Both the position numbers and the translations under genes were made by a program. From NCBI GenBank assembly GCA_013361095.1, contig JAATWA010000001.1, positions 3,441,001 through 3,505,000 of the forward strand: DNA of 64,000 nt. Direction: 5' to 3'. The number at the start of each line of letters is the position of its first letter. Positions within the stretch are counted from its first letter, which is position 1. Positions 43,681-50,620 of this stretch are shown here, in pieces. The DNA comes from Pseudanabaena biceps. GTDB taxonomy: Bacteria; Cyanobacteriota; Cyanobacteriia; Pseudanabaenales; Pseudanabaenaceae. The notes beneath the pieces are model-generated. The model was not told the origin of the DNA. It worked only from the letters and a program-made list of their open reading frames with translations, and made no database searches.

Positions 43681-43774
43681 AAATGCAAGGAAAAGCAGCA
43701 AAAGTAAGTAAAACCCTTGCACAAATAAAATTTCATGTACCGACAATCCCCCACAGGACAGCTATCATTCGAGA

Positions 43775-44830
43775 ATTTCTACTTACCATTTGGCGGGAAA
43801 CTGTCAGGAAAAAATCGATGGGTAAGATTAGCGGAACTAGTGCCGTGGGAACAATTTGAGAGTGAATATGCAGAATAATTCAGTGCAGGACAAGGAGCGC
43901 CAGCAAAGCCATTTCGGATGGCACTTGGGGCGCTGATAATCAAAGAGAAATTAGGGACAAGCGACGAAGAGACAGTGGAACAGATCCGCGAGAATCCCTA
44001 TTTACAATATTTCCTAGGCTTGTCAGAGTACAGCGACAAAGCCCCATTTGAAGCAAGCATGATGGTACATTTCCGCAAACGATTGAACCTAGAGATCGTG
44101 GGCAGAATCAACGAACGGATTGTGAAGCCTCCCAAAGAATCGGGACAAAAAGAGATAGAAGAAAAGCAGGACAAAAAAGAAGAGAAGAAAGAGAAAGAAG
44201 AGAACTTAGGAGAAAAGAATGTAGAAAAGGAACAGAGAGAAACAGAACCAGCAAACCAAGGAAAATTGCTGCTAGATGCAACAGTTGCGCCATCTGACAT
44301 CCGTTATCCCACTGACATCAAACTGTTGAACGAAGCAAGGGAACAAACGGAAATTGTGATTGATGCTCTTTACCAACAAGTGCAAGAACAATTACCGAAG
44401 AAACCACGCACCTATCGTCGTGAAGCAAGGACAGCTTATCTCCAAATTGCCAAACAACGCAAACCCAATTCTAAAAAGATTCGCAAAGCAATGCGCCAAC
44501 AGTTGGGTTATGTCCGTCGCAATCTTGCCCATATTGATATCCTAATTGCCGCAGGGGCAAAGCTATCAGAATTGAAGAAGAATCTCTATCGGAACTTGCT
44601 GGTCGTCAGTGAAGTATATCGGCAACAACAATTGATGTACGAGCAAGGTTGTCATCGTATAGACGACCGCATCGTCAGTATTACGCAACCTCATGTACGT
44701 CCGATTGTTAGAGGTAAGTCAGGAACACCCGTGGAGTTTGGCGCTAAACTATCAGTTAGTTGTGTGGATGGTCATGCATTTCTCGACCATCTCAGTTGGG
44801 ATAATTTCAATAAATCGGGGGATTTGCAGC
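43775..44830 (+). pseudogene. IS1182/IS5-like transposase relic, 3' end missing
   Basis: The frame starts FYLPFGGKLSGKNRWVRLAEL after a one-base shift near 43775, has an in-frame TAA at 43876-43878, then an open stretch from ATG 43918: MALGALIIKEKLGTSDEETV, an acidic/lysine-rich linker, and LLLDATVAPSDIRYPTD with the first catalytic Asp. The frame is interrupted at 44830 by the left end of an IS256 element and nothing of its C-terminal half is found beyond the other end. A DUF772-type IS1182-like family is my best placement. Confidence 0.75.
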
Positions 44831-46157
44831 GAGAGTGTACAGTAAATTGTGTAAAGTCTAGGAAGTATACAGAGAGATAATCTAGACACACAATTACTAA
44901 CACCAAAAAGATGAATATACGCAAAGAATTGCTAGATGAATTGCTACAAGAATGTAAAACTCCACCCGACCTATTCGGAGAAGGAGGAATTCTCAAACAA
45001 CTAACTACCGCCTTAGTGGAGCGAGCATTGGAAGCAGAACTATCCACGCATCTGGGGTACGGCAAGCACGAACGCAGACCAGAAGGGCAAAGCAACAGTC
45101 GCAACGGCTATAGTCAGAAAACAGTGCAAGGGGACTTCGGCGTAGCGGAAATCGCCATACCCCGCGATCGCCAAGGAGAGTTTGAACCGCAGATGGTGAA
45201 GAAAGGACAAAGCCGATTGTCAGGACTAGACGAAAAGATCATCTCCTTGTATGCCAGAGGCCTGAGTGTCAGGGATACCCAAGCCCAGTTGCAAGAAATG
45301 TATGGTGTCGAAGTATCACCGACACTAATCTCCAATGTGACTGATGCGGTAATTGATGAGGTGAAGCAATGGCAAAATCGCCCTCTAGATGCAGTTTACC
45401 CGATCGTATTTATGGACTGTCTAGTCATCAAAGTCCGAGACAATGGTCGGGTGATTAATAAGTCCCTGTACTTTGCCTTGGGGGTGAATATGGACGGGTA
45501 CAAAGAATTATTGGGGATGTGGATTTCACGATTGGGAAGGTGCGAAATTCTGGTTGTCAGTACTCACCGAAATTCACAACCGTGGGGTCAAGGATATTTT
45601 GATTGCTTGTGTCGATGGTTTAACTGGTTTTCCCAAGGCACTTGAAACGGTATTTCCCAAAACTCAAGTACAGTTGTGCATTGTTCACATGGTGCGTAAC
45701 TCGGTCGCTTTTGTCCCCTGGCAACAACGCAAGCAAGTCTGTGCTGACCTCAAGGCTATTTACAGTGCGGCAACTGAATCGGAGTCAGAGTTTAATCTCG
45801 AACTCTTTGCCGAAAAATGGGACAAGCAATATCCGTCGATCTCCAAGTCTTGGCGCAGTCATTGGGCGAATATTATCCCCTTCTTTGCTTTCCCCCCTGA
45901 GATTCGCAGGGCAATTTATACCACCAATGCGATTGAGTCAATGAATAGCAATTTGCGGAAGGTGATTAAATCTCAACAGATTTTTCCCTCTGATGCTGCT
46001 GCTTTCAAGCTAGTCTATTTGGCGATGCGGAATATCTCGAAGAAGTGGACGATGCCAATTCGCGATTGGAAGCCTGCCCTGAATCGCTTTGCTATCCTCT
46101 TCGAGGATCGTCTCCATGTCTAGCTTCTACACTTTACACATTTTACTTGACAGTCTC
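44831..46157 (+). mobile_element. IS256-family insertion sequence, frameshifted
   Basis: 1327 bp. Imperfect inverted ends: GAGAGTGTACAGTAAATTGT (44831 on) and the complement of ...TTTTACTTGACAGTCTC (ending 46157). The transposase is split by one extra base. The flanking 8-9 bp (ATTTGCAGC left, TTTTAGTTA right) do not match, so no target duplication is preserved. Confidence 0.88.
44911..46123 (+). pseudogene. IS256-family transposase, one-base frameshift
   Basis: First part from 44911: [20 protein letters not shown] ... [21 protein letters not shown] ... with catalytic Asp in [13 protein letters not shown]. Reading the other frame from about 45530 gives [32 protein letters not shown] (second Asp), HMVRNSVAFVPW and TTNAIESMNSNLRKV (Glu), ending at 46123. 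An extra C at or near 45529 (ATT TCA C GAT TGG) accounts for the break. All three DDE residues would be present if it were repaired. Confidence 0.9.
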
Positions 46158-46194
46158 TTTTAGTTACCTCTATGCTGCATTCATAAAGAATGTG

Positions 46195-46315
46195 GCGCTA
46201 AGCGCTGCCTTTTTTATTTACATTTTGGCAAGTTCTAGCATTGTTTTTAGGACAGAATCAGGATTAATCGATACCTTGCTCAAACTTCGGGAATTGGACA
46301 CTCAATGGAGTCTTC
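46195..46315 (-). pseudogene. Relic of the 3' end of a second ppsA gene
   Basis: On the minus strand, up to the stop at 46218, this encodes SINPDSVLKTMLELAKM followed by a stop. The last 15 residues are identical to the C-terminus of the intact PpsA at 48182, but with several silent differences. A decayed GCGCTTAGCGCC hairpin follows the stop, as after the real gene. Similarity fades upstream of about 46315. The rest of the gene is gone. Confidence 0.75.
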
Positions 46316-46470
46316 TTCAGTAAGCTCAAATGCGATTGCCTAAACCTCCACATCAAACAGCGATTGCCCCTCATAACCAACAAACCTAATCGTCTATTCT
46401 CTCAATATCAAACAGGGATCGCCAAGATATTCAAGCCAACCAATGTACCAATTGCTCTTGAATTGAGTAT

Positions 46471-47154
46471 TTAAAGAAATCCCCGCTTTTTTAGTTTAGC
46501 CAGTGCGTCAGCCGCAGCTTCTTTCTCTGCCTCTTTCTTATTACGTCCTTTCCCTTCACCACAAATTTTGCCATTGACATAAACTTTAGCTAGAAATTCG
46601 GGAGAATGAGACACTCCTCCAATCTGCTCAGTTTCGTACTTTGGAGGAGTTGTAGCTCCATTTGCTTGTACAAATTCTTGAAGCTTATTTTTAGAATCTA
46701 TACTTGAGCGAACAACCATGACATCTTTTGGCACAGAGTCAAACAGTTGCTCTACTATAGGGCGAAGTACTTCGATATTACGATTATTATCTAAGTAGTA
46801 AGCGCCAACAACGGATTCAAATGTACTGCTCAGAATATTAGGATTAGTAAAACCACCTTCTCTTTTTGCTCCTTCTCCCAAACGGATTCTAAAATCTAGT
46901 CCAACCTCAGTTGCAAAACGAGCGAGTTGCTTTTCATCCACAAGTGCCGAACGTCTTCGAGTCATTTCATCTTCTGCCATCTCAGGATTTTGTCCATATA
47001 GGTATTCTCCACTAATGAAATTGAGGATGGCATCGCCAAGAAATTCTAGTCTTTCATTATGTCCAGATTCATCAAAGTTTTCATTAACAAAAGAGCGATG
47101 AGTAAGCGCACGACGAAGTAATTTTTCGTCATTAAAAATCAAAAGTTTATGCAT
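46471..47154 (-). CDS. rnc: Ribonuclease III
   Basis: 227 residues. The endonuclease domain has the RNase III signature NERLEFLGDA at 33-42 and the downstream FESVVGAYYLD acidic site. The C-terminal double-stranded RNA-binding domain (about 155-225) has NKLQEFVQANGATTPPKYE and GRNKKEAEKEAAADALAKL. It processes rRNA precursors and structured RNAs. Cyanobacteria often have more than one rnc copy. The hairpin-rich transcripts of this genome would be natural substrates (inference). Confidence 0.95.
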   Translation of the reverse strand: MHKLLIFNDEKLLRRALTHRSFVNENFDESGHNERLEFLGDAILNFISGEYLYGQNPEMAEDEMTRRRSALVDEKQLARFATEVGLDFRIRLGEGAKREGGFTNPNILSSTFESVVGAYYLDNNRNIEVLRPIVEQLFDSVPKDVMVVRSSIDSKNKLQEFVQANGATTPPKYETEQIGGVSHSPEFLAKVYVNGKICGEGKGRNKKEAEKEAAADALAKLKKRGFL

Positions 47155-47239
47155 TGTTATTAAGTTTATTTGTTAGAAATATAATTTTCTAAAATAACTA
47201 AAACCTAAATATAAAATCTAGATTTTAGTTGATCAAGAG

Positions 47240-47527
47240 TTATTTGCCAGAGTTGTTCAAAGATGAACTTTTATACCGCTGCTCAGGTGGAAATAGGCTG
47301 TTACCGCGTGAGCCATTACATTTACGACAAGTAAGACGTAAATTTTCTGGATTGTTTGATCCACCTTTACTTGAAGGGCGCAAGTGATCAAGGGTAAGTT
47401 GCTCAAACAGGAAATCTTGCCGACACCAATAACAACACAAACCAAAGCCCCAATCATATGCAAGAAGATGTTTGACAGCATCTTTTTGCTTCTTAGTCAT
47501 TTGTTTAGGCATTTCAAAAAATTCCAT
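47240..47527 (-). CDS. HNH endonuclease-domain protein
   Basis: 95 residues. Zinc-finger-like cysteine pairs (CCYWC and CRKC) and the HNH core LTLDHLRPSSKGGSNNPENLRLTCRKCNGSRG. The small stand-alone HNH type is found in many cyanobacteria; its target is unknown. It lies 85 bp upstream of rnc in the same direction and might be co-transcribed. Confidence 0.85.
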   Translation of the reverse strand: MEFFEMPKQMTKKQKDAVKHLLAYDWGFGLCCYWCRQDFLFEQLTLDHLRPSSKGGSNNPENLRLTCRKCNGSRGNSLFPPEQRYKSSSLNNSGK

Positions 47528-48147
47528 TAAATAAATGTTTAACAGACTTGAAATATCAAATTGCCAAATACCTAAAAAGTCTATGCATACGCAGCATAAC
47601 TTTTTAGAATATTTGATCGTAAACGTCTTAAGCAGAATACAAGCGCCACTCAGTTCTGGGCATACTCAGTATGTTGAACTAGTACTCTTTGTATAATTGC
47701 AAGATGCATTCTTCAATTAGTGCTAAGTCAAAATAATGAATATACACTGAACTGAGAAGCGCTCGTATTCTGCTTAAGACGTATACCCAAATATTGGATA
47801 TTTTTTTGTCCTATCCTAATTAACTATAACAAAATCTATTTTGTCAATAGTTTGCTAACAAATAATTGCTGAATTATTGTTTTATTTGTCATGAATAAAT
47901 TTACAGGGTTTTTAGTGTGTTAGGTGATCGCATTACCTTGATACTGGGCTAATCTCAAAAGCTAATTCATGGCGATAGAAACAAACATTGAATTCAGTAA
48001 AAAAGTTTATATGTCCAAGAATTACAGGTAAGACGTTTGATCGAGTCTAAGTAAAAGCGAATAAGGGGCTTGAGAAATTTCCAACAGTGCCAGACAAAAC
48101 TAAACCTTTCGCTTCACTGTTTAATTGATGCTAGTATGGTTAAGTAA
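47528..48147. other. Intergenic region with a large inverted repeat
   Basis: About 620 bp without a clear gene. It holds a small hairpin at about 47573-47605 (AAAAAGT...ACTTTTT), the large inverted repeat 47619-47786, and near 48055-48147 a plus-strand frame GLRNFQQCQTKLNLSLHCLI that looks like a degraded transposase C-terminus (low confidence). Confidence 0.5.
47619..47786. repeat. Large imperfect inverted repeat, 168 bp
   Basis: About 38-bp arms: GTAAACGTCTTAAGCAGAAT + AC... on the left and its complement (GTATTCTGCTTAAGACGTAT + AC) on the right, with an AT-rich centre of about 90 bp. It is unlike the GGCGGCGC palindromes. It may be a MITE, or the ends of a lost element. Confidence 0.75.
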
Positions 48148-48180
48148 TAAGAAAGGCGGCGCATTGCGCCGCCTTTCTTA
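48148..48180. terminator. ppsA terminator
   Basis: 15-bp arms TAAGAAAGGCGGCGC around the loop ATT, directly after the ppsA stop. Confidence 0.93.
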
Positions 48181-48181
48181 T

Positions 48182-50620
48182 TTACATCTTCGCAAGTTCG
48201 AGCATTGTCTTCAATACAGAATCAGGATTGAGACTAATCGAGTCAATGCCTTGCTCAACAAGGAACTTGGCAAACTCAGGATAATCGCTAGGAGCCTGAC
48301 CACAGATACCAATCTTGCGATGGTTTGCCTTAGCCTTTTGAATCACCGTGCGAACCATTGACTTAACCGCTTCATTGCGTTCATCAAAGATATGGGCAAC
48401 GAGAGAAGAGTCACGATCTAAGCCGAGGGTCAACTGGGTGAGGTCATTGGAGCCGATCGAGAAGCCATCAAAGACTTGTGAGAACTCATCCGCTAAGATA
48501 ACGTTACTGGGAATCTCGCACATCACATAGACTTCTAATCCATTTTCACCACGCTTCAAGCCATGTTTTTCCATTTCCGCAAGCACCTTGCGACCTTCTT
48601 CGGGAGTGCGACAGAAAGGAATCATCGGAATCACATTGGTTAAGCCCATGTCATCGCGGACACGTTTGAGGGCTTGGCATTCCAAACCGTAGGCTTCGCG
48701 ATATTTCGGATCGTAGTAGCGGGATGCGCCACGCCAGCCGATCATCGGGTTTTCTTCGGTAGGTTCAAAGGCGCGACCACCGAGCAGATTGGCGTACTCG
48801 TTGCTCTTGAAGTCGGACATCCGCACAACAACGGGTTTGGGATAGAAAGCGGCAGCGATCGTGCCGATACCGTGAGCCAGCTTGTCTACAAAGAAATCAG
48901 CCTTGTTTTCATAGCGTGCTGTCAGTTTCGAGATTTCCCATTTCGCGGCTTTGTCTTCGAGGGTATCGAAGTTCATCAGGGCGAGGGGGTGCGCTTTGAT
49001 ATGGTTAGCGATGATGAATTCCATACGGGCTAGACCAACGCCATCGCAAGGGATGGAAGATAAACCAAAGGCTTCTTCGGGGTTGCCCACATTCATCATG
49101 ATTTTAGTGGAGAGTTTGGGCAAATTATCGAGGGAAGTTTCGATGACTTCAAAGGGAACTAGCCCTTCATAAACCTTGCCTTCTTCTCCTTCAGCGCAAG
49201 AGATAGTAACTTCTTGACCAGTTTTGATTACGCCTGTGGCATTGCTGCAACCCACGATCGCAGGAATACCCATTTCTCGCGCAATGATGGCGGCGTGGCA
49301 GGTGCGTCCCCCTTGGTTCGTGACGATCGCACTAGCCTTTTTCATAATTGGTTCCCAGTCGGGGTCAGTCTTATTAGTGACTAGCACTTGACCTGCTTGG
49401 AAGTCCTCAATGTTATTTACTTCCAAAATCACATTCGCTTTGCCTTGACCGATCATCTCGCCCACAGCCCGACCTGTAATCAGCACATCACTGGAACCAT
49501 TCAATTTGTAATTTTTAAGAATGTTTCCCGACTTTTGCGATTGCACAGTTTCAGGACGGGCTTGAACGATGAACAATTCCCCTGTGCGTCCATCTTTTGC
49601 CCATTCAATATCCATCGGTGATAACTTGCCGCGTACTTCTGAATAGTGGTCTTCAATGATGCAAGCCCATTCTGCGAGTTTGAGGATTTCGTCATCGGTA
49701 ATTGCGAATTTGACTCGTTCGGAAACTGGAACAAGAATATTTTTGGTCAGCTTGCCGCCGCCAATGTCATAGACCATCTTGATTTCCTTTGATCCGAGGC
49801 GCTTTTCAAGAATGGGACGAAAGCCTTGTTTGAGTGTTGGTTTGAAGACAAAATACTCATCGGGATTGACTGCACCCTGCACTACGTTTTCACCTAAGCC
49901 ATAGGCGGCAGTGATTAGTGCTGCATTTTTAAAGCCTGTTTCAGTATCAATCGTAAACATCACACCAGAGGCGGCGAGGTCGGAACGCACCATCTTTTGT
50001 ACGCCAACGGAGAGGGCAATGTCAAAATGGTCAAAACCATTGATCGTGCGGTAGGAAATGGCGCGATCGGTGAATAGTGAAGCAAAGCAGCGATGGCAAG
50101 CATCAACTACTTCATTCGCACCATAGACATTGAGATAGGTTTCCTGTTGCCCTGCAAAACTGGCATCAGGTAAGTCTTCGGCGGTAGCACTAGAACGTAC
50201 AGCCACATCAGCGTCTTTACCACAGGACAACTCGCAGTCACAGAGCTTCTGGTAGGACATAGCGATCGCCATTTGCAGATCGTCTGGAAATGGCGTGCTG
50301 AGAACTAAAGCACGCGCTTGACGACCGCGATCGCTTAGGTTATTCATATCCTCAATGTCGAGATCGGCAAACAGTTCCCGCAATTTTGCTTCTAAGCCAG
50401 CCTTCTCGATAAAGTAGCGGAAAGCATAAGCAGTAGTTGCGAAGCCATTGGGAACGTTTACTCCCTTGGGTTGCAATTGGCGAATCATTTCCCCTAGAGA
50501 AGCATTTTTTCCACCCACAAGAGGAATATCAGAGATTCCCACTTCTTCAAACCAAAGTATTAATGCTTTGTCTTTAGAGACATTTCTCGACAGTCCCGCA
50601 GTTAAAAATGAACTAGTCAT
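48182..50620 (-). CDS. ppsA: Phosphoenolpyruvate synthase
   Basis: 812 residues, the standard PpsA length. It converts pyruvate + ATP + water to PEP + AMP + phosphate for gluconeogenesis. The N-terminal ATP-grasp domain begins LWFEEVGISDIPLVGGKNASLGEM; the phosphohistidine domain carries the catalytic H442 in GGRTCHAAIIAREMGIPAIVG; the C-terminal PEP-binding barrel has VYVMCEIPSNVILADEF and GSNDLTQLTLGLDRDS. Monocistronic, with its terminator at 48148-48180. A relic of a second copy's 3' end lies at 46218. Confidence 0.97.
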   Translation of the reverse strand: MTSSFLTAGLSRNVSKDKALILWFEEVGISDIPLVGGKNASLGEMIRQLQPKGVNVPNGFATTAYAFRYFIEKAGLEAKLRELFADLDIEDMNNLSDRGRQARALVLSTPFPDDLQMAIAMSYQKLCDCELSCGKDADVAVRSSATAEDLPDASFAGQQETYLNVYGANEVVDACHRCFASLFTDRAISYRTINGFDHFDIALSVGVQKMVRSDLAASGVMFTIDTETGFKNAALITAAYGLGENVVQGAVNPDEYFVFKPTLKQGFRPILEKRLGSKEIKMVYDIGGGKLTKNILVPVSERVKFAITDDEILKLAEWACIIEDHYSEVRGKLSPMDIEWAKDGRTGELFIVQARPETVQSQKSGNILKNYKLNGSSDVLITGRAVGEMIGQGKANVILEVNNIEDFQAGQVLVTNKTDPDWEPIMKKASAIVTNQGGRTCHAAIIAREMGIPAIVGCSNATGVIKTGQEVTISCAEGEEGKVYEGLVPFEVIETSLDNLPKLSTKIMMNVGNPEEAFGLSSIPCDGVGLARMEFIIANHIKAHPLALMNFDTLEDKAAKWEISKLTARYENKADFFVDKLAHGIGTIAAAFYPKPVVVRMSDFKSNEYANLLGGRAFEPTEENPMIGWRGASRYYDPKYREAYGLECQALKRVRDDMGLTNVIPMIPFCRTPEEGRKVLAEMEKHGLKRGENGLEVYVMCEIPSNVILADEFSQVFDGFSIGSNDLTQLTLGLDRDSSLVAHIFDERNEAVKSMVRTVIQKAKANHRKIGICGQAPSDYPEFAKFLVEQGIDSISLNPDSVLKTMLELAKM

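Follow-up and report, generated by a model that had tools for sequence, protein, structure and literature searches.

Downstream of its intact phosphoenolpyruvate synthase gene (ppsA), the genome of Pseudanabaena biceps carries a second, short run of codons for the end of the same protein. The question raised by this locus is what kind of gene the run was left by: a second working ppsA of this genome, or something else. The window, that is the whole 64,000-nucleotide stretch of DNA analysed, belongs to the genome called G000 here, which forms a genus set of 26 genomes together with 25 others. The features at and next to the short run, and those of the intact gene, are as follows.

46160..46186, plus strand: regulator relic (LuxR/NarL-type response regulator, convergent to ppsA), comprising the stop and the 8 codons before it, with a C-terminus as in genomes G018 and G009
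46187..46217, minus strand: decayed intrinsic terminator that once separated ppsA from its convergent neighbour, assigned by folding energy
46218..46312, minus strand: relic of a ppsA 3′ end, with an approximate upstream limit
48146..48182, minus strand: intact terminator of the resident ppsA, an 18-bp perfect inverted repeat
48182..50620, minus strand: intact resident ppsA (812 aa), without a second close ppsA in G000

The open part of the relic, at 46218-46265 on the minus strand, encodes NPDSVLKTMLELAKM-stop, that is the last 15 residues and the stop of intact PpsA, as the preliminary description had stated. Ahead of the N, the relic has I where PpsA has L, so that identity ends at 15 residues, and in-frame identity is restricted to these last 15 codons and the stop. 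Over the 16 codons compared, the relic and the end of the resident ppsA show 7 nucleotide differences in 6 codons. All of them are silent, which bears out the silent divergence also noticed at the outset. Ungapped similarity extends over 83 nt (46183-46265 as compared to 48147-48229, 81% identity) and, with an E-value of 1.7e-15 in a search of G000, is not due to chance. Upstream of 46266 the alignment continues as a gapped extension with frame-breaking deletions (46266-46312), and similarity fades by about 46312. The fragment thus combines significant similarity to a functional ppsA with a truncated and broken frame, and is a gene remnant. Since its differences from the resident gene lie at silent sites, it derives from a ppsA that was once under selection; on this point the preliminary description is supported. 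A literature search on ppsA relics in Pseudanabaena found none, which is not proof of their absence.

The sequence on the other side of the stop codon is a remnant as well. A decayed copy of the terminator had been described there, and the region 46175-46216 indeed folds to only −10.8 kcal/mol, as two short hairpins, as compared to −29.7 kcal/mol for the intact terminator of the resident ppsA and −22.5 kcal/mol for that of G018. Beyond it, 46160-46186 on the plus strand encodes LVTSMLHS-stop, with one silent difference from the end of the G018 regulator, a protein made of a receiver and a LuxR-type domain. The span initially given for the feature, 46195-46315, therefore covers the ppsA relic and omits its other half, the regulator tail. 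Nineteen regulator loci were examined, one per genome, the remaining 7 of the 26 genomes having given only weak or short matches. The LVTSMLHS-stop end was found only in G018 (Phormidium tenue FACHB-1050) and G009; for G008, one of the other 17 loci, the aligned part reaches only residue 167 of 212, short of the end to be compared. In G018, ppsA lies directly against the convergent regulator with this end, and in G009 a DDE transposase gene splits ppsA from the same regulator. Since the LVTSMLHS-stop end comes with ppsA against it in G018/G009, the two tails belong to one fossil of a locus where ppsA and the regulator converged. The feature is thus a two-gene fossil, consisting of the ppsA tail, the terminator and the regulator tail of a locus of the G018/G009 kind. 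When the G018 regulator region was searched in G000, the best match was this 61-nt relic. The loss of the regulator from G000 is not telling alone, since six other genomes (G010, G012, G017, G020, G021 and G024) also showed no strong regulator match.

Ordinary remnants of bacterial genes (truncated pseudogenes) show a short homologous stretch, a broken frame, a decayed terminator and adjoining insertion sequences (IS). The ppsA relic is like them in all of these traits; it differs from them in keeping a two-gene junction, which ties it to a particular type of locus. A scrap of 150 bases can therefore be traced back to one particular former locus if such a junction survives.

The ppsA side of the junction was compared with the ppsA tails of the 26 genus genomes, and G018 and G009 gave the best matches. 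The region 46158-46265 is 92% identical over 108 nt to the ppsA tail, terminator and flank of G018 (E = 2.6e-36). The same region is 91% identical to G009 over 95 nt and 91% identical to G023 over a shorter 64 nt, whereas identity to the resident tail is lower (the 81% over 83 nt given above). Within ppsA itself, relic and G018 are 96% identical over 51 nt, with 2 silent differences in 16 codons as compared to 7 from the resident gene; over 23 codons, 3 differ, all at third positions. Once the broken part is added to the alignment, four genomes (G009, G016, G018 and G022) stand at the same distance from the relic, each with 18 differences out of 104. The third-position difference between G000 and G018 amounts to 36% in gyrB, in which G000 is only 86% identical to G018/G009 and no more than about 86% identical to the nearest of the genomes compared. 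The difference between relic and G018 is low against this value of 36% (binomial P = 0.014). Against the 25% third-position difference between the resident ppsA 3′ end and G018, it is not significantly low (P = 0.14). This tiny sample gives, by the gyrB yardstick only, a hint that the relic type may have entered the G000 line by transfer. A phylogeny of the fragment, as proposed in the preliminary description, was built from the columns where the G000 relic has letters, leaving aside the relics of G008 and G011. With this very short fragment, AU p values were 0.27 for a clade of the relic and the resident ppsA, which was not rejected, and 0.39 for the relic with G018 and G009, which was not the best tree; no branch was starred. 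The fragment being too short, tail-fragment trees were dropped as evidence.

How many ppsA genes a Pseudanabaena genome holds bears directly on the idea, put forward initially, that a second working ppsA had been kept in this genome. Relatives were searched for two close ppsA genes, and none of the 26 genus genomes has them. One full-length ppsA is present in 24 of the 26; none was found in G008 and in G021, the latter being only 82% complete. The two further PpsA matches in G000 are only 34% and 31% identical, over parts, and the nearest named records of the resident gene are those of Pseudanabaena sp. lw0831 and Phormidium tenue FACHB-1050, both with 95% protein identity. An old paralogue within the genome, long kept by selection and then lost, would explain why the divergence is silent and the protein end unchanged, and two ppsA-like genes do occur in Nostoc parmelioides, outside the genus. 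However, the 26 genus genomes hold no such paralogue and the relic has the junction found at the single-copy ppsA of G018/G009, which makes this origin highly improbable and speaks against the idea of a second gene kept in the genome. Since the relic carries that junction, its silent differences are differences between alleles of one gene. We therefore consider it probable that the relic is the end of a displaced ppsA allele of the G018/G009 kind.

Isolated ppsA tails were found in three of the 26 genomes, G000, G008 and G011. In G008 the stranded tail lies with a terminator at L214:1490-1580, and no ppsA gene was found in that genome. In G011 it lies with a terminator at L216:1497-1572, and the intact ppsA of G011 has a different C-terminus.

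The DNA separating the relic from the resident gene contains the following features.

46334..48119, minus strand: inserted block with an HNH gene and an rnc-paralogue gene, homologous to rnc-paralogue loci of other Pseudanabaena genomes
46471..47154, minus strand: rnc paralogue (RNase III, 227 aa), assigned by family match
47240..47527, minus strand: HNH_5 endonuclease-like gene (95 aa), assigned by family match
48120..48145, no strand assigned: junction from the resident ppsA terminator to the rnc block, with no match in the comparisons, rnc loci included

The rnc paralogue is present in 11 of the 25 other genomes, at 13 loci (two with an incomplete rnc), with 77-95% identity and partly shared surroundings. 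An HNH-like gene precedes rnc in 10 of these 13 loci (L143-L155), with 59-94% identity in eight cases and 32-39% in two. Most rnc loci match the region from about 47930 to 46411, and the match reaches 46334 in G016 (L149). The end of the block on the ppsA side varies: the match to G010 starts at 48000, and in G004 and G025 the rnc flank corresponds to 48119-47808.

This block had suggested another origin for the repeated tail, namely the duplication of an attachment site, in which the ppsA 3′ end would have been the target of site-specific integration by a small element carrying rnc and the HNH gene, a further copy of the tail arriving with this element. The block is indeed flanked by two direct copies of the tail, with 14 nt as their longest exact shared stretch. 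However, its two genes encode an RNase III and an HNH_5 protein, with no integrase between the copies; its left end, as just described, is not fixed; and a ppsA tail accompanies rnc at none of the 13 other loci, within the 5-12.7 kb compared per locus. These observations speak against the attachment-site claim of the preliminary description, and we regard such an integration as very unlikely.

Some further observations concern the block. A donor having ppsA followed by the HNH-rnc block was found in none of the 26 genomes. Reading the HNH-rnc pair as a defence system was set aside: rnc had no PADLOC match and the HNH gene gave weak matches only, the best being PtuB at 8e-6. As a possible empty site, G000:C17:439293-439818 matches the sequence that follows rnc in G019, but no flank from upstream of rnc matches there, and this candidate was also set aside. 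The C17:439293-439818 interval is a two-gene module, HicBA-like by sequence reading only, among other small genes and repeats. Between the HNH gene and ppsA, 47619-47786 forms an imperfect inverted repeat of MITE-like shape, with arms of 79 nt that are 78% complementary and lie 10 nt apart. At the other end of the block, 46334-46423 belongs to a family of interspersed, locally tandem repeats of about 55-90 nt, found beside several rnc and ppsA loci.

Comparison of ppsA between genomes indicates that ppsA alleles have been swapped in Pseudanabaena. G009, G018 and G004 are 94.5-96% identical in gyrB and only 88-90% identical in ppsA. Between G009 and G018, 225 of 2037 ppsA sites differ before column 2040 of the alignment (11%), as compared to 10 of 396 after it (2.5%; Fisher P = 4e-9). 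The ratio of the difference at the 3′ end to that in columns 440-2040 is 0.27 for this pair, the lowest of 91 pairs (next 0.54, median 0.87); the pairs are those of 14 of the 24 genomes with ppsA, having ELAKM or ELAKK as C-terminus, G005 being left out as near-identical to G006. The genes upstream of ppsA also differ between G009 and G018. From this difference and from the contrast in 3′ divergence, it follows that the body of ppsA was replaced while the tail and the regulator flank were kept. A mosaic scan of the resident ppsA showed a break between G000 and G003 at column 1835 (0/300 permutations), but G003 also breaks against G023 at 1841 and the G000-G003 signal may come from G003. As different parts of the gene are under different constraint, the G009-G018 3′ contrast is the only one of the breaks relied on here.

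Neighbourhoods of ppsA were compared in 21 of the 24 genomes having the gene, three being left out. A flavodiiron-like gene (ODP, flavodoxin and flavin-reductase domains) lies upstream of ppsA in 9 of these 21. A relic of the ppsA 5′ end at such a gene was considered for G000 and rejected: the nearest match, at C17:923894 (79%), has no ppsA promoter match. As for gyrB, its open frame is enlarged to 806-1089 aa in six genomes (G017, G025, G004, G022, G008 and G021), by an insertion at one site; in G017, an intein splicing domain is recognised by Pfam.

Could the displaced tail instead come from an additional gene? An extra ppsA locus of the G018/G009 kind may have been gained, with both copies working for a while before IS elements and deletions wore down the additional one. 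That the relic allele differs from the resident one by silent changes only would agree with such a history, as would the richness of the region in IS. Nevertheless, two close ppsA genes coexist in 0 of the 26 genomes, just the last 95 nt or so of ppsA are left, and it is the HNH-rnc block that adjoins the tail, not a deletion scar. We thus judge a gained and eroded extra locus to be unlikely.

Displacement of an old ppsA end fits the anatomy of the locus, in which cargo, presumably of outside origin, is joined to a full ppsA and followed by the old end. The incoming DNA would have carried a 3′ part of ppsA and, after it, the HNH-rnc block. On one side, homologous recombination with the old ppsA would have taken place; on the other side, the incoming DNA would have been joined without homology inside the old ppsA tail, the illegitimate joint being placed between about 46312 and 46334. 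As an outcome, a whole ppsA would have been kept and the old tail would have been left stranded downstream, where it decays. The regulator gene and its neighbour would later have been lost for the most part through IS activity. Homology-facilitated illegitimate recombination yields products with homology at one end, an unrelated joint at the other and a gain of foreign DNA (PMC3240628). The ppsA locus shares that anatomy, and, judging from the anatomy alone, this process has somewhat less than an even chance of being the exact mechanism.

A mechanism akin to homology-facilitated illegitimate recombination was proposed for the T6SS clusters of Vibrio cholerae, which contain displaced 3′ ends and orphan immunity genes, and a similar one is reported for Rhs loci with their orphan 3′ regions (PMC5361080). 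As in these systems, a full gene lies upstream at the ppsA locus and is followed by new cargo, behind which the 3′ part of the former version is stranded. In contrast to them, ppsA is a housekeeping enzyme gene with a constant 3′ end, and its stranded tail is decaying and has no known benefit.

Overall, the scrap is most likely no lost second enzyme but a minor, ordinary fossil left when related strains swapped genes. As such, the relic is one clear trace of the replacement of a housekeeping gene in a freshwater cyanobacterial genus. A broader scenario, which we find doubtful, is that ppsA serves as a recurrent landing anchor in Pseudanabaena. Its body and neighbours would be repeatedly swapped by one-sided recombination, cargo such as HNH-rnc being trapped behind, and stranded tails with terminators (3/26 genomes) would record the former loci, perhaps kept for a while as the convergent neighbour also makes use of the terminator. 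Should such tails turn out to be frequent, replacement events could be counted from them; failing that, they would represent ordinary genome decay.

Beyond the regulator tail, the fossil is bounded by two mobile elements.

43700..44830, plus strand: segment of a DUF772-type transposase element, which the IS256-family element interrupts at 44830
44831..46157, plus strand: IS256-family (Mutator-type transposase) insertion sequence, with its transposase split in two ORFs

Position 43700 is only the start of the query and not a boundary of the element. Other copies of the DUF772-type element match up to 44830, and in one of them (L314) the transposase frame continues beyond. The IS256-family element has 12 other near full-length copies in the genome (90-98% identity), the ends of which fall within 1-3 nt of the same boundaries. 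In the window, no 8-bp target duplication was found around it; this says little, since of six further full-length copies inspected only L311 carries one (8 bp). The right end of the IS256-family element falls within the regulator relic and its left end within the DUF772-type gene, whereas after a simple insertion one and the same gene would flank both sides. A deletion or a recombination between IS elements would therefore have removed most of the regulator.
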